A stretch of DNA of 54,352 bases from Domibacillus indicus. Its GTDB lineage: Bacteria > Bacillota > Bacilli > Bacillales > Domibacillaceae. Shown here piece after piece: positions 2,403 through 37,432 of this stretch (position 1 is the stretch's first letter; each line of letters begins with the position of its first letter). Below the pieces are notes generated by a model. It saw only the letters and a program-made list of their open reading frames with translations. It was not told the DNA's origin and did no database searches. The position numbers were made by a program, and so were the translations under genes. The stretch is from NCBI RefSeq assembly GCF_023715895.1, contig NZ_JAMBOO010000028.1:1-54352 (forward strand), written 5' to 3'.

Positions 2403-2960
2403 CTATTCAAGATTGGCATGTCTGCCATACATGGTTTCTGAATTCATTCCTTTTCGCTCCATAAGCCGCAGGATAACAGAATCATATGTCAGCAAAAGGC
2501 TTTGTTCAAAAAGGGAACCCATCGGCTGAATCGATTTATTGCCGGTGTCTTCGCCTGATTTAGTCTGTGCCGGAATTTCTACCACAACATCCGCAAGGCT
2601 GCCAATGGTGGAATTTGGAGCGATGGTAATGGCCGCTACAACTGCACCAATGGACTTTGCTTTTTCTGCCATCGCCACAAGACTTTTTGTTTCACCAGAG
2701 CCCGAGCCGACAATAAAGATATCGCCGTCCTCCAGGTTCGGTGTGACCGTTTCCCCTACTACATATGGATCGAGCCCCATATGCATCATACGCATGGCAA
2801 ACGATTTCGCCATAAACCCAGAGCGTCCAGCACCAGCGACAAGCACTTTCTTGGCTTCCAGAATGCCATTGACCAGTTGTTCTGTTTGATCACCATTCAT
2901 TAACGCAGCCGTGCGCTGAAGTTCATTTAAGATTTCTGCAGTATACTGAGTTGTCTGCAT
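2403..2960 (-). CDS. hxlB: 6-phospho-3-hexuloisomerase
   Basis: A 185-residue SIS-domain isomerase, the usual length for this enzyme. It converts 3-hexulose-6-phosphate to fructose-6-phosphate, the second step of formaldehyde fixation in the RuMP pathway. The sugar-phosphate site is visible as GAGRSGFMAKSFAMR (about residues 42-56) and VGSGSGETKS (about 84-93). It starts two bases after the hxlA stop, so the two are co-transcribed and probably translationally coupled. The order hxlA-hxlB with hxlR alongside matches B. subtilis. Confidence 0.95.
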   Translation of the reverse strand: MQTTQYTAEILNELQRTAALMNGDQTEQLVNGILEAKKVLVAGAGRSGFMAKSFAMRMMHMGLDPYVVGETVTPNLEDGDIFIVGSGSGETKSLVAMAEKAKSIGAVVAAITIAPNSTIGSLADVVVEIPAQTKSGEDTGNKSIQPMGSLFEQSLLLTYDSVILRLMERKGMNSETMYGRHANLE

Positions 2961-2962
2961 AA

Positions 2963-3604
2963 TTACACAGTAACCGCTTCCTTAATCATGTTTTGCATTT
3001 GAGCAGCTGCAGATTTTTTATCCTCCTGGCTTGTAATCCCGCCGCCGACGATAATCAAATCCGGCTGCGCAGCAATTACTTCGGACAGAGTATCCATTTT
3101 AATCCCGCCGGCAATGGCTGTTTTAGCATTTTTTACAACACTTTTAATCGTACGCAGGTCTTCAAATGAATTTTGGCCAACCGCCTGCAGGTCATAGCCC
3201 GTGTGAACACAAATATAGTCAACACCCATTTCATCCAGTTCACGCGCCCGTGCTTGTTTATCTTTTACCGCAATCATATCAACCAAAATCTGCTTGCCTT
3301 GTTTCTTGGCTTCTTCTACAGCTCCTTTAATAGATGCATCTTCTGCAGCGCCCAAAATAGTTACGATATCCGCACCCGAAGCTGCAGCCTGGGATACTTC
3401 ATAGCCTGCCGCGTCCATAATTTTTAAGTCGGCCAGCACCGTCAAATTGGGGAAGGCATTTTTAACTTCTTTTACTGCACGAAGGCCTTCATTAATGACA
3501 ACTGGTGTTCCAATCTCTACAACATCTACGTGTTCCTGTACTTCTTTGATTAGTTCGATCGCCTGCGGAATGTTTACAAGATCTAATGCCAATTGTAATT
3601 TCAT
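2963..3604 (-). CDS. hxlA: 3-hexulose-6-phosphate synthase
   Basis: A 213-residue TIM-barrel enzyme of the orotidine-decarboxylase superfamily. It condenses formaldehyde with ribulose-5-phosphate to give 3-hexulose-6-phosphate. The metal/substrate motif DLKIMDAAGYE lies near residues 60-70, followed by ILVDMIAV, VHTGYD and AGGI. The ribosome site AGGGAGAG precedes the ATG. It is first in the hxlAB operon and sits behind a HxlR-type operator/promoter. In Bacillus this pathway removes toxic formaldehyde. Confidence 0.96.
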   Translation of the reverse strand: MKLQLALDLVNIPQAIELIKEVQEHVDVVEIGTPVVINEGLRAVKEVKNAFPNLTVLADLKIMDAAGYEVSQAAASGADIVTILGAAEDASIKGAVEEAKKQGKQILVDMIAVKDKQARARELDEMGVDYICVHTGYDLQAVGQNSFEDLRTIKSVVKNAKTAIAGGIKMDTLSEVIAAQPDLIIVGGGITSQEDKKSAAAQMQNMIKEAVTV

Positions 3605-3644
3605 AATGTGTTTCTCTCCCTTATTTAAAATTTTGTATAAGCTC

Positions 3645-3713
3645 AGTCTAAAGACAAAATTTTTATAAGGGAAGTACGCACTTTAAATTCAGATAGTCAC
3701 AAAATGTATACTG
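3645..3713 (-). promoter_or_regulatory. hxlAB promoter with HxlR-type operator
   Basis: Read on the minus strand: CAGTATA, nine bases, ACTATCT, then GAATTTAAAGTGCGTACTT, with a -10-like TAGACT 23 bases beyond GTAC. The same elements with the same spacing occur on the plus strand ahead of zwf. HxlR activates hxlAB in B. subtilis by binding upstream of the promoter, so this is the expected target. The poor -35 (TTCCCT) fits an activator-dependent promoter. Confidence 0.75.
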
Positions 3714-3752
3714 TCATTGTCGATAAGTGTGTTTTAAGCACTGTATCGTATC

Positions 3753-4127
3753 TTAGTCCAAAGAAGACGCTGGCTTATTTTGGTCTTCCAGCTTTTTCTG
3801 GATAAATGTTTTGTAATCCCTGCCCCAGCTGTACATGGATTCAAGAATCGGCATTAAACTTTCTCCTTTATCGGTTAAAGAATATTCCACTTTAGGCGGC
3901 ACTACAGGATAGACCTCGCGATGAACAATATAGTCGGACTCTAACTCTCTTAATTGATTCACCAGCATGCGCTGGGTGATACCGGGCATTAATCCCTTCA
4001 GCTCGTTAAATCGTTTTGTGCCTTCTTTGCCTAAATGCCATAAAATAAGCATCTTCCATTTTCCGCCGATCACATGAAGCGTGAGTTCTTTTTCACAATT
4101 AAAATCTTTTGTGCAAGTATGTCCCAT
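3753..4127 (-). CDS. hxlR: HxlR-family transcriptional activator of the RuMP genes
   Basis: A 124-residue winged-helix protein of the HxlR family. Typical stretches are [20 protein letters not shown] (about residues 9-28), [14 protein letters not shown] (about 49-62) and [14 protein letters not shown] (about 71-84). In B. subtilis HxlR activates hxlAB in response to formaldehyde. It lies upstream of and parallel to hxlAB and diverges from zwf, placing it between two copies of its likely operator. The conserved N-terminal Cys (after KDFN) is in the position proposed for formaldehyde sensing. Confidence 0.92.
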
Positions 4128-4262: not shown

Positions 4263-4331
4263 CAGTATATTTTAGGACACTATATGAATTTAAAGTGCGT
4301 ACTTATAACGGAGATATGGAGCCACTATACT
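4263..4331 (+). promoter_or_regulatory. zwf-gnd promoter with HxlR-type operator
   Basis: CAGTATA, nine bases, ACTATAT, then GAATTTAAAGTGCGTACTT, followed by TTATAA (-35-like), 17 bases and TATACT (-10). The 19-base core is identical to the one ahead of hxlAB in opposite orientation, with the same distance to the -10. This directly supports joint control of hxlAB and zwf-gnd by HxlR. Confidence 0.78.
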
Positions 4332-4382: not shown

Positions 4383-5930
4383 ATGAAAACCATGACAATG
4401 CCTGCTAGTCTCCAAGTCGAACAAACTGCTCTTGAAACCACTCAGGAAACAAGGTTGAGCCCAATGACGTTTGTTTTGTTTGGGGCAACAGGGGATTTAG
4501 CCAAAAGAAAAATTTTCCCTGCATTGTACAATTTGTTTTTAGATCATAAGCTGCCAAATACTTTTTCGATTATTGGCTTAGGAAGAAAAGAAGGGTCTGA
4601 TCAGGCTTTTCAAGCTCATATAGAGAAAGCGGTCAAAACATTCTCGAGAAGAACCGTACAGGATCACGCTAAGTTAAACGAATTCCTTCTTTACTGCCAT
4701 TATCAACAGCTTGATGGAACGAAAAAAGAAGATTATGCTGTTTTGCTTAAAAGCGTTCAAAAGTATGAAGCTGAATTGAATCTGCCGGAAAATCGGCTGT
4801 TTTATTTGTCTGTATCGCCTGAATTCTATAATGATATTGCTTCAAATATTAAAGAAAGCGGACTGGATGCTGTTCAGGGCTGGAAACGCCTCATTGTAGA
4901 AAAGCCTTTTGGCCACGATACCGATTCTGCACAAGCATTAAACAAAACATTAAGCCAGACATTCAAAGAAGAAGAAATTTATCGAATTGATCACTATCTC
5001 GGAAAGCCTATGGTTCAAGGTCTTGAATCACTGGAATTTGCAAACCCAATCTTGAAAGCGATATGGAATAATCAATATATTTCTAACGTTCAAATAACGG
5101 CTAGCGAAACGGTCGGAGTTGAAGAAAGAGCGGCCTATTATGATCAGGCAGGTGCCATCAGAGACATGGTTCAAAACCATCTATTGCAGCTTGTGATGAT
5201 GACAGCCATGCATGTAACGGAAAAAGTAAGTGCAAAAGAAGTGGTCGAAAAGAAAAAAGAAATTATGCATGCTCTGCGGCCGCTGCAGAAGGAAGATGTA
5301 GCAGTTAATGTAATCCGAGGTCAATATGGACCGGGAGGCATACTTGGTGAAAAAGTGATGGCTTATAACGAAGAGCCTGGCGTCGATGCTTCATCGAAAA
5401 ACGATACCTTTATTGCAGCCCGCTTATGGATTGATGATGACTTTTGGGCAGGCGTCCCTTTCTATATTCGAACTGGTAAAAGAATGAAAGAAAAATCAAC
5501 AAGAATTGTGATTGAATTTAAAAATCAGCCAGCCAAAGCAGACACGGACCAAAAGAAAACAATGCCGCCTAATCTTTTAACTATTGAAATCAATCCGTGT
5601 GAAAATGTTTCCTTACGTTTAAATATGAAAAATCCGCTGACAAACCGGATTGAACCTGTTTCTATTGATCTTTCATCGGGCAATGAAAATCTGCCGGAAG
5701 CGTATGAGCTGCTACTATTTGATGCGATTGGGGGCAACTCCACATTTTTTGCCCATTGGCAGGAAGTCGAACTTTCCTGGAAGTGGGTTCAGCCTATATT
5801 GGAAGCATTTAAAGAGAATAGGGTTCCTTTGTACACTTATCCAGCCGGTTCGATGGGTCCAGATGCTTCAGAAGAGCTGCTAGAAACAGACGGTTTTCAT
5901 TGGTGGCAGCCGGAAAAAGCTAATTGGTAA
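4383..5930 (+). CDS. zwf: glucose-6-phosphate 1-dehydrogenase
   Basis: A 515-residue enzyme that oxidises glucose-6-phosphate to 6-phosphogluconolactone with NADP+. The dinucleotide motif GATGDLAKRK lies near residues 34-43, the substrate site RIDHYLGK at about 200-207, and EKPFGHD upstream of it. AGGAGGGG precedes the ATG. It is first in a two-gene operon with a 6-phosphogluconate dehydrogenase and lies behind the HxlR-type operator. In this setting it is probably the RuMP-cycle copy rather than the housekeeping zwf. Confidence 0.95.
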   Translation: MKTMTMPASLQVEQTALETTQETRLSPMTFVLFGATGDLAKRKIFPALYNLFLDHKLPNTFSIIGLGRKEGSDQAFQAHIEKAVKTFSRRTVQDHAKLNEFLLYCHYQQLDGTKKEDYAVLLKSVQKYEAELNLPENRLFYLSVSPEFYNDIASNIKESGLDAVQGWKRLIVEKPFGHDTDSAQALNKTLSQTFKEEEIYRIDHYLGKPMVQGLESLEFANPILKAIWNNQYISNVQITASETVGVEERAAYYDQAGAIRDMVQNHLLQLVMMTAMHVTEKVSAKEVVEKKKEIMHALRPLQKEDVAVNVIRGQYGPGGILGEKVMAYNEEPGVDASSKNDTFIAARLWIDDDFWAGVPFYIRTGKRMKEKSTRIVIEFKNQPAKADTDQKKTMPPNLLTIEINPCENVSLRLNMKNPLTNRIEPVSIDLSSGNENLPEAYELLLFDAIGGNSTFFAHWQEVELSWKWVQPILEAFKENRVPLYTYPAGSMGPDASEELLETDGFHWWQPEKANW

Positions 5931-5963
5931 TAAAGAATTCGGTAAAAAAGAGGAGATATGAAT

Positions 5964-6863
5964 ATGAGAGTAGGTTTAGTTGGTTTAGGAAAAATGGGGA
6001 TAAATCTTGGTCAAAATCTTATTGATCATGATTATGAAGTCGCAGCATTTGATCTTAATCCGGATGCCACCGATGAAATGAGAAAGTACGGGGCTGATGC
6101 GTTTTCCAGTTTGCAGGAACTTGTAGCATTTCTGCCCCAGCCCCGGATCCTCTGGCTCATGGTTCCACATTCAGCAGTAGATTCTGTTCTTGGCGAACTG
6201 ACGCCGCTGCTAAGTAAAGGGGATATTGTGATCGAAGCGGGCAATTCCCATTATAAAGAATCGATTCGCCGCTACGATGATTTGAAAACAAAGGGCATTT
6301 ATTTTATGGACGTCGGGACTTCCGGCGGTACGGAAGGAGCTCGTCATGGAGCCTGTTATATGGCAGGAGGAGATCTGGAGGCATGGAAAATAATAGAACC
6401 TATTTTCAGGGATACAGCCGTTGAGAAAGGCTTTTTATACGCAGGAAAAGCAGGCAGCGGCCACTATTTAAAAATGATTCACAACGGTATTGAGTATGGC
6501 ATGATGGCAGCGATTGGAGAAGGATTTGAAATCCTTGAAAAAAGCGAATTCGATTATGACTATGAAAAGGTTGCTAGTGTATGGAACCATGGGTCTGTTA
6601 TTCGTTCCTGGCTGATGGAATTAACCGAAAATGCCTTTTCAAAAGATGCCCATTTGGATGAAATAAAAGGCGTTATGCATTCCTCGGGCGAAGGAAAATG
6701 GACGGTGGAAGAAGCGCTTGATTTGCAAGCCGCTGCACCTGTCATTACCATGTCTTTACTCATGCGCTACCGATCTTTAAGCCATGACACCTTCACAGGA
6801 AAGGTAGTAGCAGCTCTTCGTAATGAATTCGGCGGCCATGCGGTAGAAAAAGTAAAAGTGTAA
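5964..6863 (+). CDS. gnd: 6-phosphogluconate dehydrogenase, decarboxylating, short form (GntZ/YqeC-like)
   Basis: A 299-residue member of the short bacterial 6PGDH class, clearly shorter than the ~470-residue standard form. It decarboxylates 6-phosphogluconate to ribulose-5-phosphate, CO2 and NAD(P)H. Visible are GLVGLGKMG at residues 4-12, DVGTSGGTEGARHG near 115-128, and the catalytic Lys in GHYLKMIHNGIEYG near 170. An ATG six bases upstream lies only two bases from AGGAG, so I choose the ATG with eight-base spacing. With zwf it regenerates ribulose-5-phosphate for HxlA and closes a formaldehyde-oxidising cycle. Confidence 0.93.
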   Translation: MRVGLVGLGKMGINLGQNLIDHDYEVAAFDLNPDATDEMRKYGADAFSSLQELVAFLPQPRILWLMVPHSAVDSVLGELTPLLSKGDIVIEAGNSHYKESIRRYDDLKTKGIYFMDVGTSGGTEGARHGACYMAGGDLEAWKIIEPIFRDTAVEKGFLYAGKAGSGHYLKMIHNGIEYGMMAAIGEGFEILEKSEFDYDYEKVASVWNHGSVIRSWLMELTENAFSKDAHLDEIKGVMHSSGEGKWTVEEALDLQAAAPVITMSLLMRYRSLSHDTFTGKVVAALRNEFGGHAVEKVKV

Positions 6864-7019: not shown

Positions 7020-7793
7020 TTGTCGGAAGTAATTCGAAAATCTGCTATGCTGCTTCATGTGCTTCGTTCCGCGGATTATATGGAGAAGGAAGAATGGAGC
7101 GCCACCGAATTGGGCTGCAGGCTTAATATGAGTGTTCAAACTGTGCATCGATTGCTTTCCTCTTTAGAAGAGTATGGTTTTGTCGCGAAAAACCCGGAGA
7201 CAAAAAAATTCAGATTAGGTCTCTCCCTGTTAAAGTTAGGAATGGCCATCAAAGAAAATTCATCGATTAGAAATAGTGCAATTTCGGTTATGGAAAAATT
7301 AATGAGCCAGACAAAGGAAAAGGTATATTTAACACTTCCTGAAGGTAATGAAGGAGTTTTTATTGACTGTGTTCAGCCAGGCTTCACAGCGCTTGATGAG
7401 TATATTGGCGTAAGAAATCCTTTAAGCCTGGGGGCTGCCAATAAAGTAATGTTAGCCCATGAAAGCAGAGAAAAGCGTCAAAAAATCATACAGAACCTTT
7501 ATAAAAAAGGAGAAATCAGTGACTTAAACCGATTTGAAAAAAACTTAAACATCATAGCAAAATGCGGTGTCTCTATATGTTTTGAAGAAATAAAAGAAGG
7601 AAATGCAGAGATCGCTGCACCTATTTTTTCCTGGGATAATGATGTTGCTGCGTCTATAAGCGTGATCAGTCCATCATCTAGGTTGGACGAACAAGAAATT
7701 TATATGATTATACAGTATGTTCAAGATGCTGCAGAGGAAGCTTCGAGAAATTTAGGATGGAGAGCAAAAGAACATAAAGTTTTTTCTATTTAA
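7020..7793 (+). CDS. IclR-family transcriptional regulator, copy 1
   Basis: A 257-residue IclR-type protein starting at TTG behind AGGAGGG. The N-terminal winged helix includes WSATELGCRLNMSVQTVHRLLSSLEEYG (about residues 26-53), followed by the effector-binding domain ending EEASRNLGW. It begins MSEVIRKS, as does the second IclR at 15.2 kb, and the two are clear paralogues. It lies ahead of the cupin/flavoenzyme operon and may regulate it, but no operator is proven. A terminator follows the gene. Confidence 0.88.
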   Translation: MSEVIRKSAMLLHVLRSADYMEKEEWSATELGCRLNMSVQTVHRLLSSLEEYGFVAKNPETKKFRLGLSLLKLGMAIKENSSIRNSAISVMEKLMSQTKEKVYLTLPEGNEGVFIDCVQPGFTALDEYIGVRNPLSLGAANKVMLAHESREKRQKIIQNLYKKGEISDLNRFEKNLNIIAKCGVSICFEEIKEGNAEIAAPIFSWDNDVAASISVISPSSRLDEQEIYMIIQYVQDAAEEASRNLGWRAKEHKVFSI

Positions 7794-7867: not shown

Positions 7868-8258
7868 TTCTCTAAAAACAGCTGCTCATTACTAATGTCT
7901 GTTTTCATATTAAGTAAAAGGAAGGGAGTCGTCAGGCTATAGCCAATACCATGTTGCTTTTTCATAAAAAAAGAGAAAAGGGGAGATCAATTGTACTGAA
8001 ACAGGCTGCCGAAATAAAAAAGGCCTGTCAGTATTCATAAAATGCGGCAAAAACAGTTTTCAGACGAACATAGTTATTTGTAAGGAATGTTTACAACAAA
8101 TATCATTTTCTCTCATTAGTTAGGAAAACCATATTTTAATAGAACATTCGTTATGTAAAGATGTATTCAACCCCATTTCCTCCTTTAAAACAGATTGAAT
8201 ATTCAGAATTAAACGTTTAGGAAACTGTGGGTTAAAAAACTACGCTGAGGTGAGGAAC
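7868..8258. other. control region upstream of the cupin/flavoenzyme operon
   Basis: No gene is visible in these ~390 bases. The region holds a perfect TnrA box (8079-8095), a -10-like TATTTT near 8132, and a short ACAGGC/GCCTGT inverted repeat near 8002-8028 without a T run. Confidence 0.5.
8079..8095. promoter_or_regulatory. perfect TnrA/GlnR box upstream of the cupin/flavoenzyme operon
   Basis: TGTAAGGAATGTTTACA matches TGTNA-N7-TNACA fully. Its centre lies about 57 bases before a start site predicted from the -10-like TATTTT at 8132, close to the position of known TnrA-activated promoters. Confidence 0.75.
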
Positions 8259-8672
8259 ATGAGTAAAGAAACATTGACCAAAACAGAGTTTAACTATTTA
8301 AACGAAAAACCAGGTGTACAGCTTTTAAAAGCTGGTACGTATCAAAAAAAAGAATTAAACAGCCTCCTTGGAATTCCAGCGTTAAAAAGTCAAATTATTG
8401 ATGTTCCGGTCTGTACGAATAAGCGAGCACTGTCAATGGGTTACTTTTCAATGCAACCTTCAGAAGAATTTGAATTTACTTATACGTATTTGGAGCTTAA
8501 AACGGTTATACGGGGAAAAATTGTTGTTCGGGATGATCAGGGAACTAAATTTGTAGCTGAAGCCGGCGATGTTTTAATTTTTTCGCCAGAAACAACCGTT
8601 GTATTTGATAAAGAAAGTGACGGAGACGCCATTTACACAGCTCACCGTTTGCCTGAACCTGTATTTATGTAA
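8259..8672 (+). CDS. EutQ-like cupin protein, copy 1
   Basis: A 137-residue single-domain cupin. The C-terminal half (EEFEFTYTYLELKTVIRGKIVVRDDQGTK, VAEAGDVLIFSP) shows the two cupin motifs and resembles the cupin domain of ethanolamine-utilisation EutQ. I start at the ATG behind GAGGTGAGG, not at the GTG inside that ribosome site. It is very similar to the protein encoded at 14453-14866 on the other strand. It is the first gene of an operon with a flavoenzyme and ammonium transporter and lies behind a TnrA box. Its role is unknown; a small-molecule binding or stabilising function is possible. Confidence 0.82.
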   Translation: MSKETLTKTEFNYLNEKPGVQLLKAGTYQKKELNSLLGIPALKSQIIDVPVCTNKRALSMGYFSMQPSEEFEFTYTYLELKTVIRGKIVVRDDQGTKFVAEAGDVLIFSPETTVVFDKESDGDAIYTAHRLPEPVFM

Positions 8673-8763: not shown

Positions 8764-9984
8764 ATGACAATTAATCAAGCGGTCTTAGATGAAGGAGTTA
8801 TGCAAATCCCAAGCTGGTGGAAATGTCCACCAGGATATGAGGAATTACAAAAAAAGGCTCATGAAATTGGAAAAGCAGAACTGCTTCCACGTACTTCTCT
8901 TTCTGATCAGGAAAGCCGGTATCCGCGTGAAAGCCTTAAAGCCATTGCACAAGCCGGCTATGGAGCCGTTACGATCCCTGCGCAAGAAGGAGGCATCGGA
9001 GCAGGATATATGGGCTTTGCTGTATTGGCAGAAAGTTTTGCTCATTACTGTTCGTCTTCCACAATGTGCTGGGTCATGCATACAGCAGCCGTGCAGACGC
9101 TGTATTCAGCAGGCTCACCTGAACAGCGCCAGCGTTTTATACCAGGTGTATTAAGCGGAGAGGTTGGTGCGCTTGCCTTTAGTGAGCCAGCAACGGGCAG
9201 CCATTTCTGGAATGTGGTAAGTTCAGCTCCCAGAAGCGGCGAGGGCTATCTTTTAAACGCCAGCAAGTCTTTTGTGACAAGCGGCGGCGAGGCAGACTGG
9301 TATGTCGTCTGTACAAACTATCCTGACAGTATTGAAACAGATAAACTTATGTTTTTACTTGTAGAAAAAAACCAGGAGGGTGTTGAAAGCTTCCCGTTTT
9401 CTGCAATGGGATTGCGCGGCAATTCAAGCGGTCCTATGAAGTTTACCGATGTGTTTGTTCCTGCTGAAAACCGCCTCGGCAGTGAAGGCGGCATGAATTC
9501 CTATAATGATAATGTCATTGACCCATTATTTTTGTTAGGAACCAGTGCCTGCTGGATTGGAATTGCGCAGGGAGCGCTGAACGCGGCTATTGACGGTGCA
9601 AAGAAAAAAGTTCATCAGGATACTGGAAAGTCTGTTTCAGGTTACCAGGTTATTCGTCATGAATTAGCAAAAGCACAGATCTTAATTGACAGCGCTAGAA
9701 ACATGCTGTACCGCACAGCTCAGGGAATGGATGAATGCAGCGAAAAAGGGCTTGCTTTATCAAGCTGCCTTTACCCTTTATGGGAACTGAAAACACATGC
9801 AGCGGATATTGTTATTCAAGTAACAAATCAAGCATTACAGGTATCGGGTGGCAGGGGCTATCTGACAGGACAGGTAGAAAAGTACCTTCGTGATGGCCGG
9901 GCTGGAGCACTAATGGGCCCAACCAATGAAATCCTGCGAGAATGGGTTGGCCGCACCTTGGTTGAAGTTCCGTGGTTTGAATAA
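8764..9984 (+). CDS. acyl-CoA-dehydrogenase-fold flavoenzyme lacking the catalytic Glu, probable oxygenase
   Basis: A 406-residue protein with the acyl-CoA dehydrogenase fold: N-terminal helices, the middle domain with AFSEPATGSHFW (about 138-149), and a C-terminal bundle with GGRGYLTGQ and YLRDGRAG. In true dehydrogenases the C-terminal motif IYEGTNEI supplies the catalytic Glu; here it reads LMGPTNEI, with Gly at about residue 385. Loss of that base is typical of flavin monooxygenases and other oxygen-using enzymes of this fold (DszC/HpaB type). The same operon encodes an SsuE-type FMN reductase and an FAD synthetase, so I infer a two-component oxygenase acting on a nitrogen compound. The substrate is unknown. 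Confidence 0.75.
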   Translation: MTINQAVLDEGVMQIPSWWKCPPGYEELQKKAHEIGKAELLPRTSLSDQESRYPRESLKAIAQAGYGAVTIPAQEGGIGAGYMGFAVLAESFAHYCSSSTMCWVMHTAAVQTLYSAGSPEQRQRFIPGVLSGEVGALAFSEPATGSHFWNVVSSAPRSGEGYLLNASKSFVTSGGEADWYVVCTNYPDSIETDKLMFLLVEKNQEGVESFPFSAMGLRGNSSGPMKFTDVFVPAENRLGSEGGMNSYNDNVIDPLFLLGTSACWIGIAQGALNAAIDGAKKKVHQDTGKSVSGYQVIRHELAKAQILIDSARNMLYRTAQGMDECSEKGLALSSCLYPLWELKTHAADIVIQVTNQALQVSGGRGYLTGQVEKYLRDGRAGALMGPTNEILREWVGRTLVEVPWFE

Positions 9985-10074
9985 GCGAAGGGCTGGCTTG
10001 AGATAATGTGGCAGTAGAAATTTGTAAACAGTTAATAAAAAAGCATTAGAAAGAATTGAGATGGAAAAGAAACC

Positions 10075-10111
10075 ATTTTGGATTGGCTAAAAGTATTGGT
10101 CAATCCAAAAT
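10075..10111 (+). promoter_or_regulatory. strong hairpin in the leader of amt1
   Basis: ATTTTGGATTG and CAATCCAAAAT form a perfect 11-base stem with a 15-base loop, ending 40 bases before the amt start. No clear T run follows. It may protect or process the operon mRNA or act as a weak attenuator. Confidence 0.5.
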
Positions 10112-10151
10112 AATCTTTATCCTTTTCTCATCATACCGGAGGAGGATTTCA

Positions 10152-11569: not shown

Positions 11570-11601
11570 AACTAAAAATGCCAGGAAAGGGGCGGCCAAA
11601 G

Positions 11602-17026: not shown

Positions 17027-17109
17027 TGTAAGATAATGTAACAAGTTTTCTGAAAATTTAAACTTTGTTTCGTTTTTTACAATAAAAATATTAAAAATCT
17101 GACTACTCT
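17027..17109 (+). promoter_or_regulatory. composite TnrA promoter with no intact gene downstream
   Basis: TGTAAGATAATGTAACA (perfect TnrA box), 24 bases, TTTCGTTTTTTACAAT, 20 bases, TACTCT as -10, then ATGGGTAGGCAAA. The layout equals that of the amine oxidase promoter base for base in spacing. A strong ribosome site (AGAGGGGAGG, 17175-17184) follows but leads to ATA and early stops. The plus-strand gene it served appears lost. The TnrA box may also serve the divergent AraC gene. Confidence 0.7.
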
Positions 17110-28618: not shown

Positions 28619-28701
28619 TGTCAGAAAAGTTAACAATCTCCCTTAAATTAGTCAATTTGTTTCGTTTTTTACAATCAACGAGTCCAAAAACGGCGTATTC
28701 T
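28619..28701 (+). promoter_or_regulatory. composite TnrA promoter of the amine oxidase
   Basis: TGTCAGAAAAGTTAACA (perfect TnrA box), 24 bases, TTTCGTTTTTTACAAT, 20 bases, TATTCT, then ATGGATAAGCAAA. Elements and spacings match the promoters at 17.0-17.1 kb and 35.6 kb. The second element probably binds another regulator or is a specialised -35 region. Confidence 0.75.
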
Positions 28702-30761: not shown

Positions 30762-30792
30762 GGAGGCGGGCTCTTGAGCCTGCCTCTTTTTT
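30762..30792 (+). terminator. terminator after the amine oxidase
   Basis: GAGGCGGGCTC pairs with GAGCCTGCCTC across two bases, followed by TTTTTT. Some read-through to the membrane-protein gene, 24 bases further on, is possible. Confidence 0.85.
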
Positions 30793-30815
30793 ATAAAAAA
30801 TGGAGGTGCAGCAAA

Positions 30816-31394
30816 ATGATCCTGATCAGCGGCTTTATTGTCCTTATGTATACCGTCTTTTTTGCTCTCAGCCTTTACCCGGTCAAGCAGCAGGTAAGCG
30901 CGGTGTCCGGAAAATGTATTGTCATGGCCTTCAGCATGGTGACCGCTACCCTTATCGGGCTGCTGCTTGCTTTTTCCATGCAGGGGCAGCTGGCGGCTTC
31001 TACCATCTTATCCATTGTAATGAGTGGCATTTTTGCATATATCATTGGGCGCCCGTTCGGCTTAATGGGGATCACTGAAGCACTGATGTCGGGTTTTATG
31101 GGCGGCATGATGGGAGCCATGCTTGGTGAAATGATTCCTGTAAATCAAATGACGATCATGATAGCTGCTATGGACCTTTTTTATTTTTTTACAGCAGCCG
31201 TGATTATTACGATGATCCGCCGGGAAGTTCCCACACAAAAAGAGGGATTGTTCAGTACGCGCCGGCTTCCATTTGCTTTGCTGACCACTTTATCAATCTG
31301 CATTATAGGCGGTGCCGCTTTATTTGACAGTGTTAAAGCAGCTGGCAGTGAAACGGAAGAAAACGTACAGGCCGATGATCACCATAACCATTGA
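30816..31394 (+). CDS. Met-rich membrane protein with His-rich tail, possible copper partner
   Basis: A 192-residue membrane protein with about six hydrophobic helices. GGAGGTG supports the ATG at 30816. A Met-rich stretch (ALMSGFMGGMMGAMLGEMIP, with M-x2/3-M spacing) and the C-terminal DDHHNH tail are the kinds of residues that bind copper. It lies directly downstream of the copper amine oxidase. I infer a role in copper uptake or insertion; the family is not firmly recognised. Confidence 0.7.
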   Translation: MILISGFIVLMYTVFFALSLYPVKQQVSAVSGKCIVMAFSMVTATLIGLLLAFSMQGQLAASTILSIVMSGIFAYIIGRPFGLMGITEALMSGFMGGMMGAMLGEMIPVNQMTIMIAAMDLFYFFTAAVIITMIRREVPTQKEGLFSTRRLPFALLTTLSICIIGGAALFDSVKAAGSETEENVQADDHHNH

Positions 31395-31536
31395 ATGGAT
31401 GAACAGGACGGGCTGGGAAGAAGGAGACAGCTTCAATAAAAGAAAAACATAACGGGTGAGTCCTTATCCCTTTTTTATTGCACGGCATATAAAGAAAGAA
31501 GCTCGAAAACGGATGAATAAGAAAGGCGGAAGAAAC

Positions 31537-31905
31537 ATGACCCAAAATTATGAAAAAGAAGTGAATTGCGACAAAGAATTAACCTTATCCCTAATCAGTG
31601 GAAAATGGAAGATGTTTATCATTTGGACACTGAATGATAAAGGAACGGTTCGCTTTAATGAAATGAGAAGGCTGATTCCAGCCATTACGCAGCGTATGCT
31701 GGTGAATCAGCTGCGGGAACTCGAGGCAGACGGAGTGATTCAGCGGAAAGTGTACCCTGTTGTGCCTCCGAAAGTTGAATACTCTTTAACGGAAATCGGT
31801 CACAGCTTAATGCCTATTTTGAAGTTAATGTACGACTGGGGGAAAAATTATCGGGCAACAATAGCTCAACAAAAGACGACTTCGTTAACCTCCATTTCAC
31901 AATAA
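31537..31905 (+). CDS. HxlR-family regulator, copy 2
   Basis: A 122-residue HxlR-type winged-helix protein, strongly similar to the HxlR at 3.75 kb (shared [13 protein letters not shown] and [14 protein letters not shown], same Cys near the N-terminus). AAAGGCGG supports the ATG at 31537; upstream in-frame codons lack a ribosome site. It lies beside the amine oxidase and the demethylase operon, both formaldehyde producers, so it may be a second formaldehyde sensor. No copy of the hxlAB-type operator was seen next to it. Confidence 0.88.
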
Positions 31906-32074: not shown

Positions 32075-32113
32075 AAAAACCAGCTGTCATGTTACATAGT
32101 CAACTGGTTTTCT
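32075..32113 (-). terminator. terminator overlapping the end of ebrB-like gene
   Basis: AAAACCAG pairs with CTGGTTTT; on the minus strand the first arm is formed by the last codons of the gene and the second is followed by T-rich sequence. Confidence 0.6.
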
Positions 32114-32462
32114 TAATGAAGATCTGCTTTTTTCCTTGTTGCTTGCTTTGAGAAGTGTTTAATATAACAATACCGGCAATCGTAAAGAGCAAGCCCGCCG
32201 CTTTTAAGCTATGGATGCTTTCGTGAAACAATAAGCTTCCTACAACAGCTGTACAGACTGTCCCAATGCCTGCCCAGGTTGCGTAAGCGATGGACAAGGG
32301 GATTGTTTTAAGGGCAAAACTTAAACAAGTAAATGTAGCAAGAAATCCGGCTGCAGCCCCGACAGATGGCCATACAATCGTAAAGCCGTTCGACAACTTC
32401 AGCATAGTAGAACCAAAAACTTCAAACAAAATAGCGGCTCCTAAAAACATCATTCCTTTCAA
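32100..32462 (-). CDS. ebrB: small multidrug resistance (SMR) family transporter, EbrB-like
   Basis: A 120-residue four-helix SMR protein with the essential membrane Glu in ILFEVFGSTMLKLSNGF and the SIAYATWAGIGTV signature. It starts at TTG seven bases behind AAAGGAGG. Its partner gene lies 13 bases upstream; such pairs (EbrAB) form hetero-oligomeric proton antiporters for quaternary or other organic cations. The extended polar C-terminus is typical of one partner. Its position behind a methylamine operon suggests export or exchange of methylated amines, but this is not shown. Confidence 0.88.
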   Translation of the reverse strand: MKGMMFLGAAILFEVFGSTMLKLSNGFTIVWPSVGAAAGFLATFTCLSFALKTIPLSIAYATWAGIGTVCTAVVGSLLFHESIHSLKAAGLLFTIAGIVILNTSQSKQQGKKQIFIKKTS

Positions 32463-32475
32463 GGTACTTCCTCCT

Positions 32476-32793
32476 TTATTCAGTGATATTCAGCAGCACA
32501 AGCCCCATAAGTAACAGGCCAATGCCTGCAACGCCTTGCTGGCTGATTTTTTCCCGAAACAGTAAAACGCCAGCTAAAGCGGTTAACATGATGCCAAGTC
32601 CGCTCCAGGTAGCGTAAACGATACTGAGAGGAATTGATTTCATCGTAATCGATAAACAGTAAAACGTAATGGTATAGCCGGCAATGGTTCCCGCAGCCGG
32701 CAGCCATTTGGTGAATCCGTTTGAATATTTCAGCATCGCGGCAGCAAATACTTCAAAAATGACGGCTGTTACTAAGAACAAATAAGGCAGCAT
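32476..32793 (-). CDS. ebrA: SMR family transporter, EbrA-like
   Basis: A 105-residue four-helix SMR protein: VIFEVFAAAMLKYSNGF with the essential Glu, then SIVYATWSGLGIMLTALAG. GAAAGGA precedes the ATG. It is the first of a two-gene SMR operon, separated from the demethylase operon by a terminator. Confidence 0.9.
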   Translation of the reverse strand: MLPYLFLVTAVIFEVFAAAMLKYSNGFTKWLPAAGTIAGYTITFYCLSITMKSIPLSIVYATWSGLGIMLTALAGVLLFREKISQQGVAGIGLLLMGLVLLNITE

Positions 32794-32899: not shown

Positions 32900-33853
32900 T
32901 TATAAGTCCAAAACAAGACAGTCTGTCTTAGCACGGGATACACAAGTGAGCATCACATTTTCTTCTGTTTTTTCTAAGTCGGTTAAAAAGAAATCACGGT
33001 GGTCTACTTCTCCGCCGCTCACAGGAACAAGACAGCTTCCACAGCCTCCGACTTTACATGAATAGGGAGCCTTCACCCCATGAGCAAGCAGCGCATCGAG
33101 TACACTTTCGTTTTCAGAAACAGGGATCGTTTCCCCGCTTCGCTTCAGCTTTACCTGAAGAGGATGGGACGGACCAAAATCGGGAGGAGAAAAACGTTCA
33201 AAATGAATGCTTTTGTCCGGGTAGCCGTATTCTTTGGCTGCTTCCGCAAATTCGTTCATCATGGCTTCTGAACCGCAAAAATAAACGTGCGTGCCGATCG
33301 GCTGCTGTTTCAATAAGCTGGTCTGCATTCTTTGCTGCTGGTCCGAAAAGTAAAAATGCGTTTGTTCCGGATAAGCCTGTTTTAAAAAAGAATAAAACGC
33401 GCACTGGTTGTTTGAAGGCGCAGCGTAATGCAATTCAAACGATTTTCCTTTTCGTTTTAAATCTGCTGTCATCGCTAAAAAAGGGGTAATGCCGATGCCG
33501 GCTGCAAAAAAGACATGGTGCTTTGCCTGGAAACTGAGCGGAAAATGATTTTTAGGATAGCTGATCTGCAGCCGTGCTCCTTTTTTGACCTTGCTATGCC
33601 AGTAAACAGAGCCTCCTTTTGAAACGGCCTGATGCCGAATCGCAATTTGATAAGCTGACGTATCAGCCGGATGGCTTGTTAAAGAATAGTGCCGCTCCAG
33701 CACTTCATCTTCTTTGGGCAGAAACGTCGTAATATGCGAACCTGCACTAAATCTTGGCAGGGAAACGTTTCCTGCTGGTACAAGTGTAAAGCTTTTAACA
33801 GAAGGCGACTCTTCTTTAATATCAGTCACAAAAACATCGATTAAAGTATTCAT
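32900..33853 (-). CDS. dmmB: oxidoreductase of the dimethylamine monooxygenase (FMN/[2Fe-2S], phthalate-dioxygenase-reductase type)
   Basis: About 317 residues: an FMN domain with ERHYSLTSHPAD, an NAD(P)H domain with AAGIGITPFLAM, and a C-terminal plant-type [2Fe-2S] ferredoxin with SCKVGGCGSCLVP and a distal MLTC Cys. It passes electrons from NAD(P)H to the haem subunit. The start lies in four consecutive ATG codons; I take the last, about nine bases from GAAAGG, though the two before it are possible. It follows the dmmA-like gene with almost no gap. The subunit letter is by analogy with proteobacterial Dmm systems. Confidence 0.88.
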   Translation of the reverse strand: MNTLIDVFVTDIKEESPSVKSFTLVPAGNVSLPRFSAGSHITTFLPKEDEVLERHYSLTSHPADTSAYQIAIRHQAVSKGGSVYWHSKVKKGARLQISYPKNHFPLSFQAKHHVFFAAGIGITPFLAMTADLKRKGKSFELHYAAPSNNQCAFYSFLKQAYPEQTHFYFSDQQQRMQTSLLKQQPIGTHVYFCGSEAMMNEFAEAAKEYGYPDKSIHFERFSPPDFGPSHPLQVKLKRSGETIPVSENESVLDALLAHGVKAPYSCKVGGCGSCLVPVSGGEVDHRDFFLTDLEKTEENVMLTCVSRAKTDCLVLDL

Positions 33854-33875
33854 CATCATCATCCTTTCAAAAAAG

Positions 33876-34427
33876 TCAAACACGAATATATCCTAAATAA
33901 GCATCATGCCGTTTGGAGTAGTGGGAAGAAACATCCAATTCAGTGCGGCAGCTTGGACAAACAAAAAAATCTTTTTCATTTCGGTCATGGCGTGAATAGC
34001 ATTTTACACAGAAGACAGTATCTTTTTGAGAACCAATGATTTTTAGCTGCATTTCTTCATCTGAAAATCCGGCTGTTTCTGCATGATTTCGAACTGTTTT
34101 AACAAAAGGCGCACTTCCGGCCACCACCAAGCGGGTGCCGATAAATTGAATACGCAATATGGATAAAAGTCTTTCCGAAGAAACGGTTACCAGGCAATCG
34201 AGAGAATAGGAGGAAAGCTCTGGATAAGAATAAAGAATGTGTTTCTTTGTTTGTTTTGTTTGAACGATAAAATGTAACCGGATATCAGTTGAAAAAAAAG
34301 GCTGTAAAGATGAACCGCCCTCTAATAGGGCTGCTTCATCTAATACGATAAGCAGTTTGGCTGTATGGGACGGGATGGAAAAATGATTGATTTCTTCTGC
34401 TTGTATTGTTTCAGATAAAGGAATCAT
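33876..34427 (-). CDS. dmmA: dimethylamine monooxygenase subunit DmmA-like
   Basis: A 183-residue protein of the DmmA type. The C-terminal ~45 residues hold a Cys cluster (FCVKCYSRH, then FFVCPSCRTELDVSSHYSKRH), a zinc-ribbon or rubredoxin-like knuckle, and the protein ends AYLGYIRV as relatives do. The N-terminal part resembles a Rossmann-like reductase domain without clear cofactor motifs (LVVAGSAPFVKTV). Its start overlaps the haem-subunit stop by four bases (ATGA). It is a required partner of the demethylase in known systems. Confidence 0.85.
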   Translation of the reverse strand: MIPLSETIQAEEINHFSIPSHTAKLLIVLDEAALLEGGSSLQPFFSTDIRLHFIVQTKQTKKHILYSYPELSSYSLDCLVTVSSERLLSILRIQFIGTRLVVAGSAPFVKTVRNHAETAGFSDEEMQLKIIGSQKDTVFCVKCYSRHDRNEKDFFVCPSCRTELDVSSHYSKRHDAYLGYIRV

Positions 34428-35407
34428 TTCACTGCCTCCTCTCGAATGGATAGGTGTTTCTCCAAAAAGGCTAGCAAACTCGCTTTATAGGAAATAAAGC
34501 CTTTGTATTCAGCAATGTAGTCCGGCAGGTCACTTAATACCCGGTAAAAGCGCTCGGTCCATTCGGGCTTTTCGAGAAGATCATTTAAAGAAATCAAGTG
34601 GCTGTGAATGCTGAACAAAAGTCCATTGCTTTCAGGGAGGCGAAATAAACGCTGGTCTTCTGTACGCAGATAAACGAGCTCTCCAGCTGTTTCGGCCGTG
34701 ACTGCTTCTTTTTTGCTGCCCCAGTCACTGAATGTTTCTGGAAATGTATCAAGGATAGGTTCAACTGTTAACGTCCAGTTCAGCCGTGTCCAGGGTTTTC
34801 CGGCTTCCATGCGCATCAGAAACGACCGTACTTTTTCCGCTAACCCGCTGTCAGAAAAAACAGGGACAGGGGAATGGAATTCCAGGTAAGACATCCCCAA
34901 GTTAAAGTGGATAGACCAGTTGGCAGGAAAGCAAAGCTGTCCGGCATCCATAAAAAGATCACCGTCTTTTTGTGAGATGTAAATTAAGTCTTCCTGTACA
35001 TGGCGGCCGATAAAGTCCAATGGTTCATAAGGGAGGGTGGAAGCATCTCCAAAACGAAACACTTCTTTTTCCTGAAGCAAATAGTTGTGAAACGTCCAGA
35101 TATCTTCTTTTTTGGTTACATGAAAGTAATCGGGATAATGGGCGGTAAGCTGGTTGATGACAAGCTCTAATATTTCCCACTGAGCATCGATAGAATGAGA
35201 GAAAGATTGAAAAGCTCGTTCAGGTGTTTGGGATAAAATGCTCCGTTTTAATTGGATTTCCTCATAATATTCTGGCGTGATCGTAATGGCGGGTGAGGAA
35301 GCTAGCGTTTCGGAATTATTAGAATAGCGGTATGAATCTTCTTTGAACGGAAACGGAAAACGATTGACCAAAGGGCTGTTTGGAATATGGACCGTATGGT
35401 TTGACAT
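34424..35407 (-). CDS. dmmC: haem-dependent oxidative N-demethylase (DUF3445), dimethylamine monooxygenase catalytic subunit
   Basis: A 327-residue DUF3445 protein. The family signature CFPANWSIHFNLGMSYLEFHSPVPVF appears in two adjoining pieces near residues 152-177, and RLNWTLTVEP near 207-216. DUF3445 proteins bind haem and oxidise dimethylamine to methylamine and formaldehyde. GGAGGG eight bases before the ATG at 35407 fixes the start; a longer in-frame extension lacks a ribosome site. It heads a three-gene operon with a DmmA-like subunit and reductase. The subunit letter is uncertain. Confidence 0.9.
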   Translation of the reverse strand: MSNHTVHIPNSPLVNRFPFPFKEDSYRYSNNSETLASSPAITITPEYYEEIQLKRSILSQTPERAFQSFSHSIDAQWEILELVINQLTAHYPDYFHVTKKEDIWTFHNYLLQEKEVFRFGDASTLPYEPLDFIGRHVQEDLIYISQKDGDLFMDAGQLCFPANWSIHFNLGMSYLEFHSPVPVFSDSGLAEKVRSFLMRMEAGKPWTRLNWTLTVEPILDTFPETFSDWGSKKEAVTAETAGELVYLRTEDQRLFRLPESNGLLFSIHSHLISLNDLLEKPEWTERFYRVLSDLPDYIAEYKGFISYKASLLAFLEKHLSIREEAVK

Positions 35408-35533
35408 GATTTTATCCCTCCAATGAAATAAGATAGCGGTATTTAATCGATTTACCTGTACGCCGATCATGTCATAAAACGCAAAAATCAAGCCAGGACC
35501 TTTTCTTGACTATCGGGAAAAACGATATTTTTA

Positions 35534-35658
35534 TGTAAGAAAATATATCATTAAAAAGAAAATGAGAAAAAAGATTGTCAGATAATTTTCCAATTTGCTT
35601 TGAAAAAAGAATTTAGTTTCGTTTTGTACAATTGATAAAAGAAAAAAAGAATTATTCT
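35534..35658 (+). promoter_or_regulatory. composite promoter between the demethylase operon and amt2
   Basis: TGTCAGATAATTTTCCA (35576; one mismatch to the TnrA box), 24 bases, TTTCGTTTTGTACAAT (35617), 20 bases, TATTCT (35653). A second near box, TGTAAGAAAATATATCA, lies at 35534, closer to the demethylase start. The layout equals the amine-oxidase promoter, oriented toward amt2; the upstream box may serve the demethylase operon. Confidence 0.65.
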
Positions 35659-35699
35659 GGAGGAAATATAACAAGAAAGGAGAGAAGATGGTCTGAAGC

Positions 35700-35980
35700 A
35701 CTCCATAACCCCCTGTTTTCACCAGAAGCTGTTTGGCCAAAAGAAAGTGGATAGAAAAAATGCACATGGTGATGACGATCGCTTGTATATTGACTGTTTG
35801 ACTAGTGACCAATTGAATGGTTTGGTTGAATCAATCAAAAAAGCAGCCTGGAACGTTTCCAAAAAACTTGGCTGAATTGGGCTTGCCAAGAGACTGCTAG
35901 AAGAGATATTAGAAGACACAATCAAGTTCTCCATATTGGTAAAAACAGATGGGCTTGTATCAGTACCTGCAGAATGTTAA
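35700..35980 (+). pseudogene. remnant of an IclR-type regulator C-terminus
   Basis: One frame reads KHSITPCFHQKLFGQ, later SDQLNGLVESIKKAAWNVSKKLG and then a stop. This closely resembles the end of IclR proteins, such as SIKKAAEEISSELGW at 15.9 kb. No N-terminal domain is present. It lies between the composite promoter and amt2, where the other two modules carry intact IclR genes. Confidence 0.5.
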
Positions 35981-36064
35981 AAGAAGCAGGCTAATCAGGT
36001 GAAACGTCAAAAAGAAGGCAGTAAAATTTCTGAAAATTCAATCAAATAGAAAGGGGTTTTCTTT

Positions 36065-37432
36065 ATGAATCTTTTCGGAAAACGATCAAAATGTACTTAT
36101 TTATTTTTTCTTTTGCTGTTGTTGATTCCGGGTAATGCGCTTGCGGCAACCGAAACTCCGGCTATAGATACGGGGGATACGACTTGGGTTTTAATTGCAA
36201 CAGCTCTTGTTCTTTTTATGCATGTGCCAGGGCTTGCGCTTTTTTATGGCGGGCTTGTGAGTGAACGAAATGTCGTATCGACCATGATGCACAGCTTTGT
36301 CAGCCTGCTGATTGTCAGTATCGTCTGGGTATTATGGGGCTACACATTAAGCTATGGAACAGATCTTGGCGGCGGCTTAATTGGCGGCTTGGATTATCTC
36401 GGTTTTAAAGATGTAGGCGGGGAAGCAGCCCTCGGCAGCTTGACCATTCCGCATTACTTGTTTGCGATGCTGCAGATTGTATATGCAGCGATCACTGTTG
36501 CCATTATTTCAGGCGGTATTGCCGGCAGAATTTCTTTTAAAGCATGGGTCGTTTTCGCAGCGGTGTGGCCGACTCTTATTTACGCACCGATGGCTCACTG
36601 GGTTTGGGGAGGCGGCTGGCTGTTTCAAATGGGAGAGCTTGACTTTGCCGGCGGGACGGTCGTTCATATTTTGTCGGGTGTCGGAGCGCTTGTAGCGGCG
36701 TTGATGATTGGCCCAAGACGGGGGTATTTAGAAGAGGAGCAGCGTCCGCATAACATCGTATTGTTCTTGTTTGGTGCCGCGACACTGTGGTTCGGCTGGT
36801 TTGGCTTTAATGGGGGCAGCGCTCTTGCATCAGGCGGCATTACATCACTTGCTTTTATCACGACACATACTGCAGGAGCAGCATCCGGTCTTAGCTGGCT
36901 AATCATCGAGTGGTCGCTGCGCAAGCGTCCGACGTTAATTGGAACAGCAACAGGGGCGATTGCCGGGCTGGTTGCCATTACGCCTGGAGCAGGATTTGTT
37001 ACGGTTCCTTCCGCTTTAATCATTGGCTTGCTGGCAGCACCTGTTTGTTATTTCAGCATTCACTTTTTAAAGGCCCGTTTAAAATATGATGACACACTGG
37101 ATGCATTTGGCGTACATGGTATGGCAGGGATCTGGGGAGCCATTGCTACTGGGCTTTTTGCAACCAAGTCAGTGAACCCGGCGGGCAATAACGGTTTGTT
37201 TTACGGAAATCCGGAGCAGCTTCTTCACCAGCTGACGGGGGTGGGCACGGCCGTACTTTTATCCGGCATTGGCACGTTTGTGATCTTAAAGGTAATGGGC
37301 ATGTTCATGCAGCTTCGTGTAAGCGAAGAAGAAGAAATGATGGGACTTGATTTAAGCTTCCATGAAGAACCTGCGTATAACAACGAGAACCTAGAAAAAG
37401 TGGAGGAACATAAAAATATCTCAGGTATGTGA
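36065..37432 (+). CDS. ammonium transporter (Amt/NrgA family), copy 2
   Basis: A 455-residue Amt channel with an N-terminal signal-like segment ending GNALAA. Conserved are DTTWVLIATALVLFMHVPGLALFYGG, GGTVVHILSG, WFGWFGFNGGSAL and DTLDAFGVHGMAGIWG, which contain the pore His pair. Ribosome site AAAGGGG. It has no PII gene beside it. It lies behind a TnrA-type composite promoter and next to the dimethylamine operon, so uptake of methylammonium as well as ammonium is plausible. Confidence 0.95.
   Translation: MNLFGKRSKCTYLFFLLLLLIPGNALAATETPAIDTGDTTWVLIATALVLFMHVPGLALFYGGLVSERNVVSTMMHSFVSLLIVSIVWVLWGYTLSYGTDLGGGLIGGLDYLGFKDVGGEAALGSLTIPHYLFAMLQIVYAAITVAIISGGIAGRISFKAWVVFAAVWPTLIYAPMAHWVWGGGWLFQMGELDFAGGTVVHILSGVGALVAALMIGPRRGYLEEEQRPHNIVLFLFGAATLWFGWFGFNGGSALASGGITSLAFITTHTAGAASGLSWLIIEWSLRKRPTLIGTATGAIAGLVAITPGAGFVTVPSALIIGLLAAPVCYFSIHFLKARLKYDDTLDAFGVHGMAGIWGAIATGLFATKSVNPAGNNGLFYGNPEQLLHQLTGVGTAVLLSGIGTFVILKVMGMFMQLRVSEEEEMMGLDLSFHEEPAYNNENLEKVEEHKNISGM

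Follow-up and report, generated by a model that had tools for sequence, protein, structure and literature searches.

A gene island of Domibacillus indicus proposed to link methylated-amine oxidation to a dissimilatory ribulose monophosphate cycle

Relation to described systems

We analysed a window of 54,352 nucleotides (contig NZ_JAMBOO010000028.1 of Domibacillus indicus), which contains, between positions 2,403 and 37,432, an island of genes for a haem oxidative N-demethylase (HODM), a copper amine oxidase (CuAO) and a dissimilatory ribulose monophosphate (RuMP) cycle (Table 1). The closest described systems are the C1 gene clusters of Bacillus sp. 72 and 37MA. According to the accessible text of McTaggart et al. 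2015 (PMC5023230), these contain a Mao-type CuAO, EutQ, Hps/Hpi, Zwf and a Bacillus-only Gnd under near gene numbers (Table 2 of that paper); the same text names the Mao of Arthrobacter P1, proposes a role of EutQ in methylated-amine oxidation, and gives for the Bacillus genomes neither a trimethylamine monooxygenase nor a further dimethylamine oxygenase candidate. The island shares this set (CuAO, EutQ-like cupins, hps/hpi, zwf, gnd), clustered at 2.4-30.8 kb. An earlier reading of the DNA from its letters alone (the sequence-only reading) had regarded the locus as not a standard described system; for CuAO, Hps/Hpi, Zwf, Gnd and EutQ this is superseded by the 2015 publication. Compared by description with the accessible text, the island exceeds those clusters at most by the DUF3445 (HODM) operon and its link to CuAO, by an operator-like site, and by two further modules around the flavoprotein ACAD8 and a luciferase-like monooxygenase (LLM). 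In the open-licence literature, we found nothing on a link of HODM with a CuAO locus, on the operator or on these modules.

The second described relative is DmmABC(D) of Ruegeria and Methylocella. In the accessible text of Lidbury et al. 2017 (PMC5520151), DmmABC of Ruegeria is enough in E. coli to convert dimethylamine to methylamine. The DUF3445 haem subunit, DmmA and ferredoxin-type reductase of these systems and of the solved HODM 5LTE are also present in the island, whereas no DmmD aminomethyltransferase is named among the scanned window genes. Formaldehyde is likely taken by HxlA and not by tetrahydrofolate as in the DmmABC(D) systems; beside this difference we note that hxlA lies in one run with HODM in genome G008. 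The Acinetobacter plasmid pANC7924.1 (NZ_CP156788, L150) resembles the island in carrying CuAO, DmmA-reductase-DUF3445, SMR and Amt genes within 28 kb. Its C1 genes differ, being of the folate type (purU, folD, sarcosine oxidase, aminomethyltransferase), and no HxlA relative occurs in 37.5 kb of it (NZ_CP156788.1, 50000-87540). In the actinobacterium Arthrobacter P1, a methylamine oxidase of the CuAO type reportedly feeds the RuMP cycle, as proposed for the island; we know of no DUF3445 assignment for this organism. For bacteria like the Bacillus strains in the 2015 survey of Gram-positive methylotrophs, the island supplies a candidate dimethylamine oxygenase together with a candidate regulator and DNA site.

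Gene content and proposed route

The window proteins were scanned against curated profile models (TIGR/NF cut-offs) and Pfam, and selected proteins were compared with the PDB; all functions given here are deduced from sequence, gene neighbourhood and a shared DNA motif, and the genome samples ignore kinship. The genes named by the sequence-only reading were all found at the positions it had given, and HxlA, HxlB, Zwf, Gnd, CuAO, DmmA and both Amt proteins pass curated cut-offs; it had overlooked the clusters at 8.2-13.9 kb and 18-28 kb, a Met-rich membrane protein and the shared DNA site. We estimate a probability of roughly three in four that the island is a methylated-amine route with two co-regulated oxidases, feeding a dissimilatory RuMP cycle. 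In this route, dimethylammonium would enter the cell, possibly through Amt; alkylammonium uptake suits the Amt proteins as well as the ammonia capture suggested before. HODM alpha, DmmA and the reductase would take one methyl group off dimethylamine, giving formaldehyde and methylamine, and CuAO would convert methylamine to formaldehyde, ammonia and H2O2. HxlA and HxlB would fix formaldehyde onto ribulose-5-phosphate, yielding hexulose phosphate, and Zwf and Gnd would close the cycle with release of CO2 and reduced cofactor. An AraC-type regulator acting on TTTCGTTTTNTACA would switch CuAO and HODM together, the direction of this control being likewise a proposal, and the HxlR regulators would respond to formaldehyde.

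Table 1. Features of the island, with positions in the window and supporting evidence
Feature	Position	Strand	Evidence or remark
HxlB, 6-phospho-3-hexuloisomerase	2403..2960	-	TIGR03127 258.6 bits, cut-off 160
HxlA, 3-hexulose-6-phosphate synthase, formaldehyde trap	2963..3604	-	TIGR03128 295 bits, cut-off 200
Palindrome AAGTRCGYACTT, candidate HxlR site	3672..3683		upstream of hxlA, exact match
HxlR-like regulator	3753..4127	-	RrpA/RrpB-type family, under curated cut-off; adjoins hxlA in relatives
Second AAGTRCGYACTT palindrome	4293..4304		upstream of zwf, exact match
Zwf, glucose-6-phosphate dehydrogenase	4383..5930	+	TIGR00871 546 bits, cut-off 400.6
Short Gnd, phosphogluconate dehydrogenase	5958..6863	+	TIGR00872 465 bits, cut-off 297; NF007161 423, cut-off 271
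IclR regulator	7020..7793	+	PF01614; relatives adjoin HODM in other genera
EutQ-like cupin	8250..8672	+	PF06249; directly before HODM in several relatives
ACAD8, acyl-CoA-dehydrogenase-fold flavoprotein	8764..9984	+	without usual catalytic Glu
Amt transporter 1	10056..11504	+	TIGR00836 445 bits, cut-off 343
RibF-type riboflavin kinase/FAD synthetase	11578..12483	+	under curated cut-offs
Unknown protein	12504..13292	+	no Pfam/NCBIfam family; relatives adjoin HODM reductase gene in G069, G127
SsuE-type NADPH:FMN reductase	13376..13936	+	TIGR03567 191 bits, cut-off 164
EutQ-like cupin paralogue	14453-14875	-	71% identity to cupin 8250..8672
AraC-family regulator, proposed controller of CuAO and HODM	16131..16949	-	PF12833; relative <=3 kb from CuAO in 11/16 loci
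Site TTTCGTTTTTTACA before araC	17068..17081	+	exact match; araC/NCS1 intergenic region
NCS1-type permease	18285..19694	+	TIGR00800 127 bits, under cut-off 353
PcaC-like protein	19804..20190	+	TIGR02425 157.2 bits, cut-off 155.7
GntR/FCD regulator before LLM gene	20426..21151	+	precedes LLM in many relatives
LLM, candidate ring-opening oxygenase	21148..22299	+	PF00296 168 bits
DUF1185 / AA_synth protein	22299..22877	+	PF06684 224.5 bits; 2QTP
PcaD-like alpha/beta hydrolase	22877..23728	+	profile scans
Aldehyde dehydrogenase 1	23685..25205	+	profile scan
MsuE-like FMN reductase	25249..25797	+	PF03358
Stand-alone riboflavin kinase	25810..26235	+	PF01687 129 bits
Aldehyde dehydrogenase 2	26576..28018	+	PF00171
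Site TTTCGTTTTTTACA, 122 bp before CuAO	28660..28673	+	exact match
CuAO, proposed methylamine oxidase	28782..30752	+	NF008559 944.8 bits, cut-off 651
Met-rich membrane protein, His-rich tail	30774..31394	+	relative beside CuAO in 12/16 loci
Second HxlR-like regulator	31456..31905	+	62% identity to first over 112 residues
EbrB/EbrA-like SMR pair	32100..32793	-	under curated cut-offs
HODM reductase, FAD/NAD/2Fe-2S, DmmB-like, ferredoxin-type	32900..33883	-	PF00111, PF22290
DmmA-like subunit	33876..34427	-	NF041259 78 bits, cut-off 60
HODM alpha (DUF3445/DmmC), haem oxidative N-demethylase	34424..35491	-	PF11927 220 bits vs 25
Site TTTCGTTTTGTACA between HODM and Amt	35617..35630	+	unsupported 94-codon frame overlaps
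Amt transporter 2	36065..37432	+	TIGR00836 458.6 bits, cut-off 343

The three HODM genes form one run of overlapping genes (32900-35491), and HODM alpha matches the solved enzyme 5LTE with E 2e-82 over residues 37-344 of 355. Its nearest relatives (67-68% identity), found in genomes G214 and G127, adjoin genes of the N-methylglutamate route: beside HODM in G214 there are a GmaS-like gene (588 bits vs 470 with a model for type III glutamine synthetase), genes whose domain composition is that of N-methylglutamate synthase, and a gene for an N-methyl-amino-acid oxidase, and the copies in G127 are 59-86% identical to these (the domain scan was made in G214). This adjacency to methylamine-route genes argues for methylamine as the probable product of HODM, with CuAO in the slot held elsewhere by the N-methylglutamate genes; the same haem demethylase stands beside two alternative methylamine routes. 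No GmaS or Mgs is named among the scanned open reading frames of the window. The TPQ tyrosine (NYD), three copper-ligand histidines and the base aspartate of CuAO align with those of Arthrobacter globiformis phenylethylamine oxidase (1RJO/1AV4), assuming for these residues the roles of cofactor, copper ligands and catalytic base; methylamine is its proposed substrate. Directly behind CuAO lies the Met-rich protein (206 residues), a candidate copper-handling partner, with a stretch MGxMMGAMLGxM that is invariant in six sequences. Its predicted structure is a moderate model (72), which gave no PDB match at E <=0.001; on the Acinetobacter plasmid, a gene behind CuAO carries the annotation cytochrome c oxidase assembly protein. 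The own genome contains a second CuAO (G000:C158:65765-67696, L109) of 68% identity, likewise accompanied by a Met-rich protein and an AraC, and a variant of the shared site precedes it.

Linkage in other genomes

The co-occurrence on which the sequence-only reading had made its route depend was found in several other genera. Ammoniphilus sp. YIM 78166 (L221) holds within about 15 kb the HODM operon, Amt, AraC, CuAO, Amt, hxlBA-hxlR, zwf and gnd, and of the cupin only a short cupin-like stretch. Neobacillus cucumis (L220, strain DSM 101566) has the HODM operon, two Amt, AraC, CuAO, zwf and part of hxlA, with no gnd in the stretch; Ectobacillus funiculus (L028 and L219) has the LLM operon, the HODM operon, two Amt, AraC, CuAO and HxlR, with neither hxlAB nor zwf on this contig. 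In G069, a member of another family, cupin-HODM-DmmA-reductase, three Amt, ACAD8, CuAO and AraC occur together. The distance between HODM and CuAO is <=13 kb in these four genomes. Among 13 genomes of the genus, HODM and CuAO are found in the same four. G008 (L106) carries hxlA, cupin, HODM alpha, DmmA, reductase and AraC in one run; a CuAO of this genome has catalase, a FUR-type regulator, HxlR and hxlAB at distances of 4-8 kb and stands with two permeases, one of which is a trimethylamine-N-oxide permease (NF053774, 751 bits vs 690). This cassette (L107, G008:C16) is on a contig of 18.6 kb that also carries a Rep3 initiator gene and is possibly a plasmid. In G001 the same cassette runs as far as HxlR, where the contig ends, and hxlBA is found 9 kb away on the opposite side; in addition, hxlA adjoins HODM alpha (L103), and some hxlA copies of this genome are broken or partial. 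In Acinetobacter, CuAO and HODM occur on the same plasmids, at least seven accessions being common to both sets of listed matches; ten plasmid records carry such a CuAO.

Within 20 kb of 16 other CuAO loci we counted Met-rich protein 12, AraC 11, Amt 7, HxlR 5, hxlAB 5, HODM 4, cupin 4, catalase 3, zwf 2 and LLM 1; these are lower bounds, as most flanks are shorter than 10 kb. This set omits CuAO relatives below 58% identity (G317, G322, the second in G336, G220) and a fragment in G153. The HODM neighbourhoods comprise 38 of the 57 places outside the own genome, two further places, and L103, L106, L150 and L219-L221. In the order sample, HODM is present in four of nine CuAO genomes, the own included, which is weak by itself. 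In our judgement the linkage is more than chance, and the combination could serve as a marker set for methylated-amine turnover.

Several observations weigh against the proposed route. HODM was found at only 4/16 and hxlAB at only 5/16 of the other CuAO loci; conversely, 43 HODM loci gave CuAO in one (the Acinetobacter plasmid) and HxlA in two, where the CuAO of G069 falls just outside its piece. G214 has a CuAO elsewhere, and its N-methylglutamate genes need not replace CuAO. As the nearest solved relatives of CuAO are phenylethylamine oxidases, it is possible that the enzyme acts on another amine. The window hxlAB genes are 25 kb away from CuAO, and because HxlA is present in 13/13 genomes of the genus, the hxlA module alone may be a general formaldehyde defence. 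Such points would suit ordinary clustering near an rRNA operon, in which hxlAB-zwf provides formaldehyde defence, CuAO acts on biogenic amines and HODM scavenges nitrogen; several CuAO loci are without HODM or hxl, and most of the HODM loci covered stand alone. However, the repetition of the linkage across genera and the split of the DNA site described below make this explanation quite improbable.

A common DNA site upstream of CuAO, HODM and araC

A comparison of promoter regions yielded the word TTTCGTTTNNTACA before CuAO and HODM. It matches the window exactly at three places, upstream of araC (17068), CuAO (28660) and HODM (35617), of which the araC site was outside the discovery set; at <=1 mismatch there are seven matches vs 0.78 expected, and two of the other four lie inside island genes (27238, 30545). 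The 14-base form TTTCGTTTTNTACA, picked after the fact, occurs three times in the whole genome of 5.08 Mb, at just these three places, and a variant precedes the second CuAO. In G006, a second strain of the species, it has four copies, of which three correspond to those of the window and the fourth falls within an unrelated frame. For the degenerate form TTYCGKTTTNTACA, the counts of hits and of hits to the reversed control were 7/1 in the own genome, 7/1 in G006, 7/3 in G337, 2/1 in G336, 7/5 in G069 and 2/6 in G328. Of its 32 sites in these six genomes, 30 were inspected: 13 are beside CuAO, HODM/cupin or araC, including the three window sites and their three G006 counterparts, and 11 of the other 17 are inside reading frames.

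TTYCGKTTTNTACA occurs exactly within 1.5 kb upstream of the HODM operon in 4/4 loci with a linked CuAO vs 0/41 without; one of the 41 has it at one mismatch, and shuffles gave a hit of this kind in 0.7 of 45. Here, "without" means that the stretch covered holds no CuAO; G001, G008, G214 and G292 carry one elsewhere. Note that TTYCGKTTTNTACA had been widened after the loci were viewed, which makes the 4/4 slightly circular; the first form at one mismatch is still found in all four. Within 450 bp upstream of CuAO, the first form (<=1 mismatch) occurs at 8/16 other loci. On account of its position, we propose AraC as the protein binding the site. In G069 and G328, and nearly so in G336, position alone is informative and not the count over control. 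Against the proposed route, HODM of G008 and G001 lacks the site, both genomes having a CuAO elsewhere, and no copy of it turned up before hxl or zwf; a comparison of the hxl promoters with those of CuAO and HODM gave single one-mismatch words only. Taken with the linkage in other genera, the site before CuAO, HODM and araC supports well the unit from methylated amines via formaldehyde to CO2 that the sequence-only reading had proposed.

The formaldehyde branch

HxlA, HxlB, Zwf and Gnd, the dissimilatory RuMP set, all score above cut-off. The sequence-only reading had every step of the route encoded in the window, which goes too far: its named genes are there, but neither Pgi nor 6-phosphogluconolactonase is named among the scanned window proteins, the search for these two being confined to the window. 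Its Zwf and short Gnd stand, and Gnd, to whose step it had assigned NADPH, may use either cofactor: Gnd exceeds the cut-offs of both models and fits the NAD+-named TIGR00872 better than the NADP-named NF007161. The palindrome AAGTRCGYACTT is present in the window in two exact copies, one before hxlA and the other before zwf (three at <=1 mismatch vs 0.39 expected), for which reason the formaldehyde branch seems to be under a switch of its own, apart from the CuAO/HODM site. A second hxlR-hxlA-hxlB set is present in the own genome (G000:C95:17562-18200, L113).

The luciferase-like operon

CuAO lies directly behind the operon at 18-28 kb. Of 321 LLM relatives, 80 were kept; in 74/80 loci (Bacillales, actinomycetes, SAR11), LLM is followed by DUF1185, alpha/beta hydrolase and aldehyde dehydrogenase, and in many Bacillales FMN reductase and riboflavin kinase join the operon. 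SAR11 genomes (L057-L081) contain LLM at 58-60% identity, mostly followed by DUF1185, hydrolase and aldehyde dehydrogenase; a plasmid search gave LLM matches at <=36% identity only. By gene content alone, the LLM oxygenase, flavin reductase, hydrolase and two aldehyde dehydrogenases would make up a ring-opening set. The operon could open an N-methylpyridine ring and supply methylamine, and CuAO would then be a natural gene to find next to it. The tgn pathway for trigonelline, reportedly described by Perchat in 2018, is reported to yield methylamine and would agree with the operon in gene set; so would the homarine pathway attributed to Ferrer-Gonzalez 2026, a work cited in PMC13390433. Riboflavin catabolism, considered in view of the riboflavin kinase and of the RcaE cluster, was set aside: the conserved core is DUF1185, hydrolase and aldehyde dehydrogenase, and no ribokinase is named among the scanned window proteins.

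These findings allow a tentative alternative, in which CuAO and the 18-28 kb operon are a unit of their own: LLM and FMN reductase would open a trigonelline- or homarine-like ring, from which the hydrolase and the aldehyde dehydrogenases would set free methylamine and a C4/C5 acid; CuAO would work chiefly for this pathway, and HODM would be a neighbour with another task. CuAO relatives of >=58% identity are found in 6/28 LLM genomes vs 7/298 of the order sample (the former being those of 28 of the 30 Firmicute LLM loci L002-L031, with L027 and L031 omitted), although the two samples differ in make-up and the enrichment ignores kinship. In Ectobacillus, LLM and CuAO are 18 kb apart on one contig of 35.8 kb, with an exact site about 1.1 kb before the GntR-LLM genes, and the araC site of the window falls in the intergenic region that araC shares with NCS1. 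On the other hand, CuAO occurs in 0/80 LLM loci with flanks of up to 10 kb on each side, and G069 links CuAO and HODM with no LLM within 60 kb.

The flavin-enzyme cluster

The cluster at 8.2-13.9 kb accompanies HODM in four genera. ACAD8 was found in 4/299 genomes of the order, all with HODM near (<=8 kb in three, 24 kb in the window), and is accompanied by EutQ-like cupins. At the positions which we take to hold the catalytic Glu in SCAD and IVD, this residue is missing: the C-terminal one reads MGPTNE in 4/4, and the second, seen in 2/4, has no Glu. Because of this loss, and since genes for SsuE and RibF are its neighbours in the window, ACAD8 may plausibly be a flavin-dependent monooxygenase. 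For the protein at 12504-13292, structure prediction gave a useless model (mean pLDDT 33). It is conceivable, if doubtful, that HODM and ACAD8 use an N-methyl compound larger than dimethylamine, ACAD8 feeding HODM as flavin monooxygenase or dehydrogenase. The constant company of HODM, the altered active site and the neighbouring SsuE and RibF genes of the window would fit this; however, Neobacillus, Ammoniphilus and Ectobacillus have HODM and CuAO without ACAD8 in the stretch covered, and in the other three genomes with ACAD8 no relative of SsuE was observed next to it. A still less probable, combined reading has three inlets (dimethylamine via HODM, N-methylpyridine via LLM, another methylated amine via ACAD8) converge on one CuAO and formaldehyde sink, with the AraC site uniting the oxidases and a new Met-rich protein supplying copper to CuAO. 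ACAD8 would then be an acyl-CoA-dehydrogenase-fold monooxygenase and represent a novel type of amine demethylase. Concrete hypotheses are now available for two unstudied families, ACAD8 and the Met-rich partner of CuAO.

Surroundings of the island

The second strain (G006, on two contigs) is colinear with window positions 184-38250 at 93-95% DNA identity; as gene order is kept, the island is not an assembly artefact. Positions 38251-43044 are missing in G006, where the two sides meet, and colinearity stops at about 43.9 kb. The missing part carries an amidohydrolase gene (38314-39939) and one TnpB gene. To the left, positions 1-304 hold the last part of a 23S rRNA gene together with a gene for 5S rRNA, such that the island starts just behind an rRNA operon. 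To its right, there are two IS605-type TnpB genes (40582-41805 and 49159-50382), which are 96% identical, and a gene for a RelA/SpoT-domain protein of 351 residues (46846-47901).

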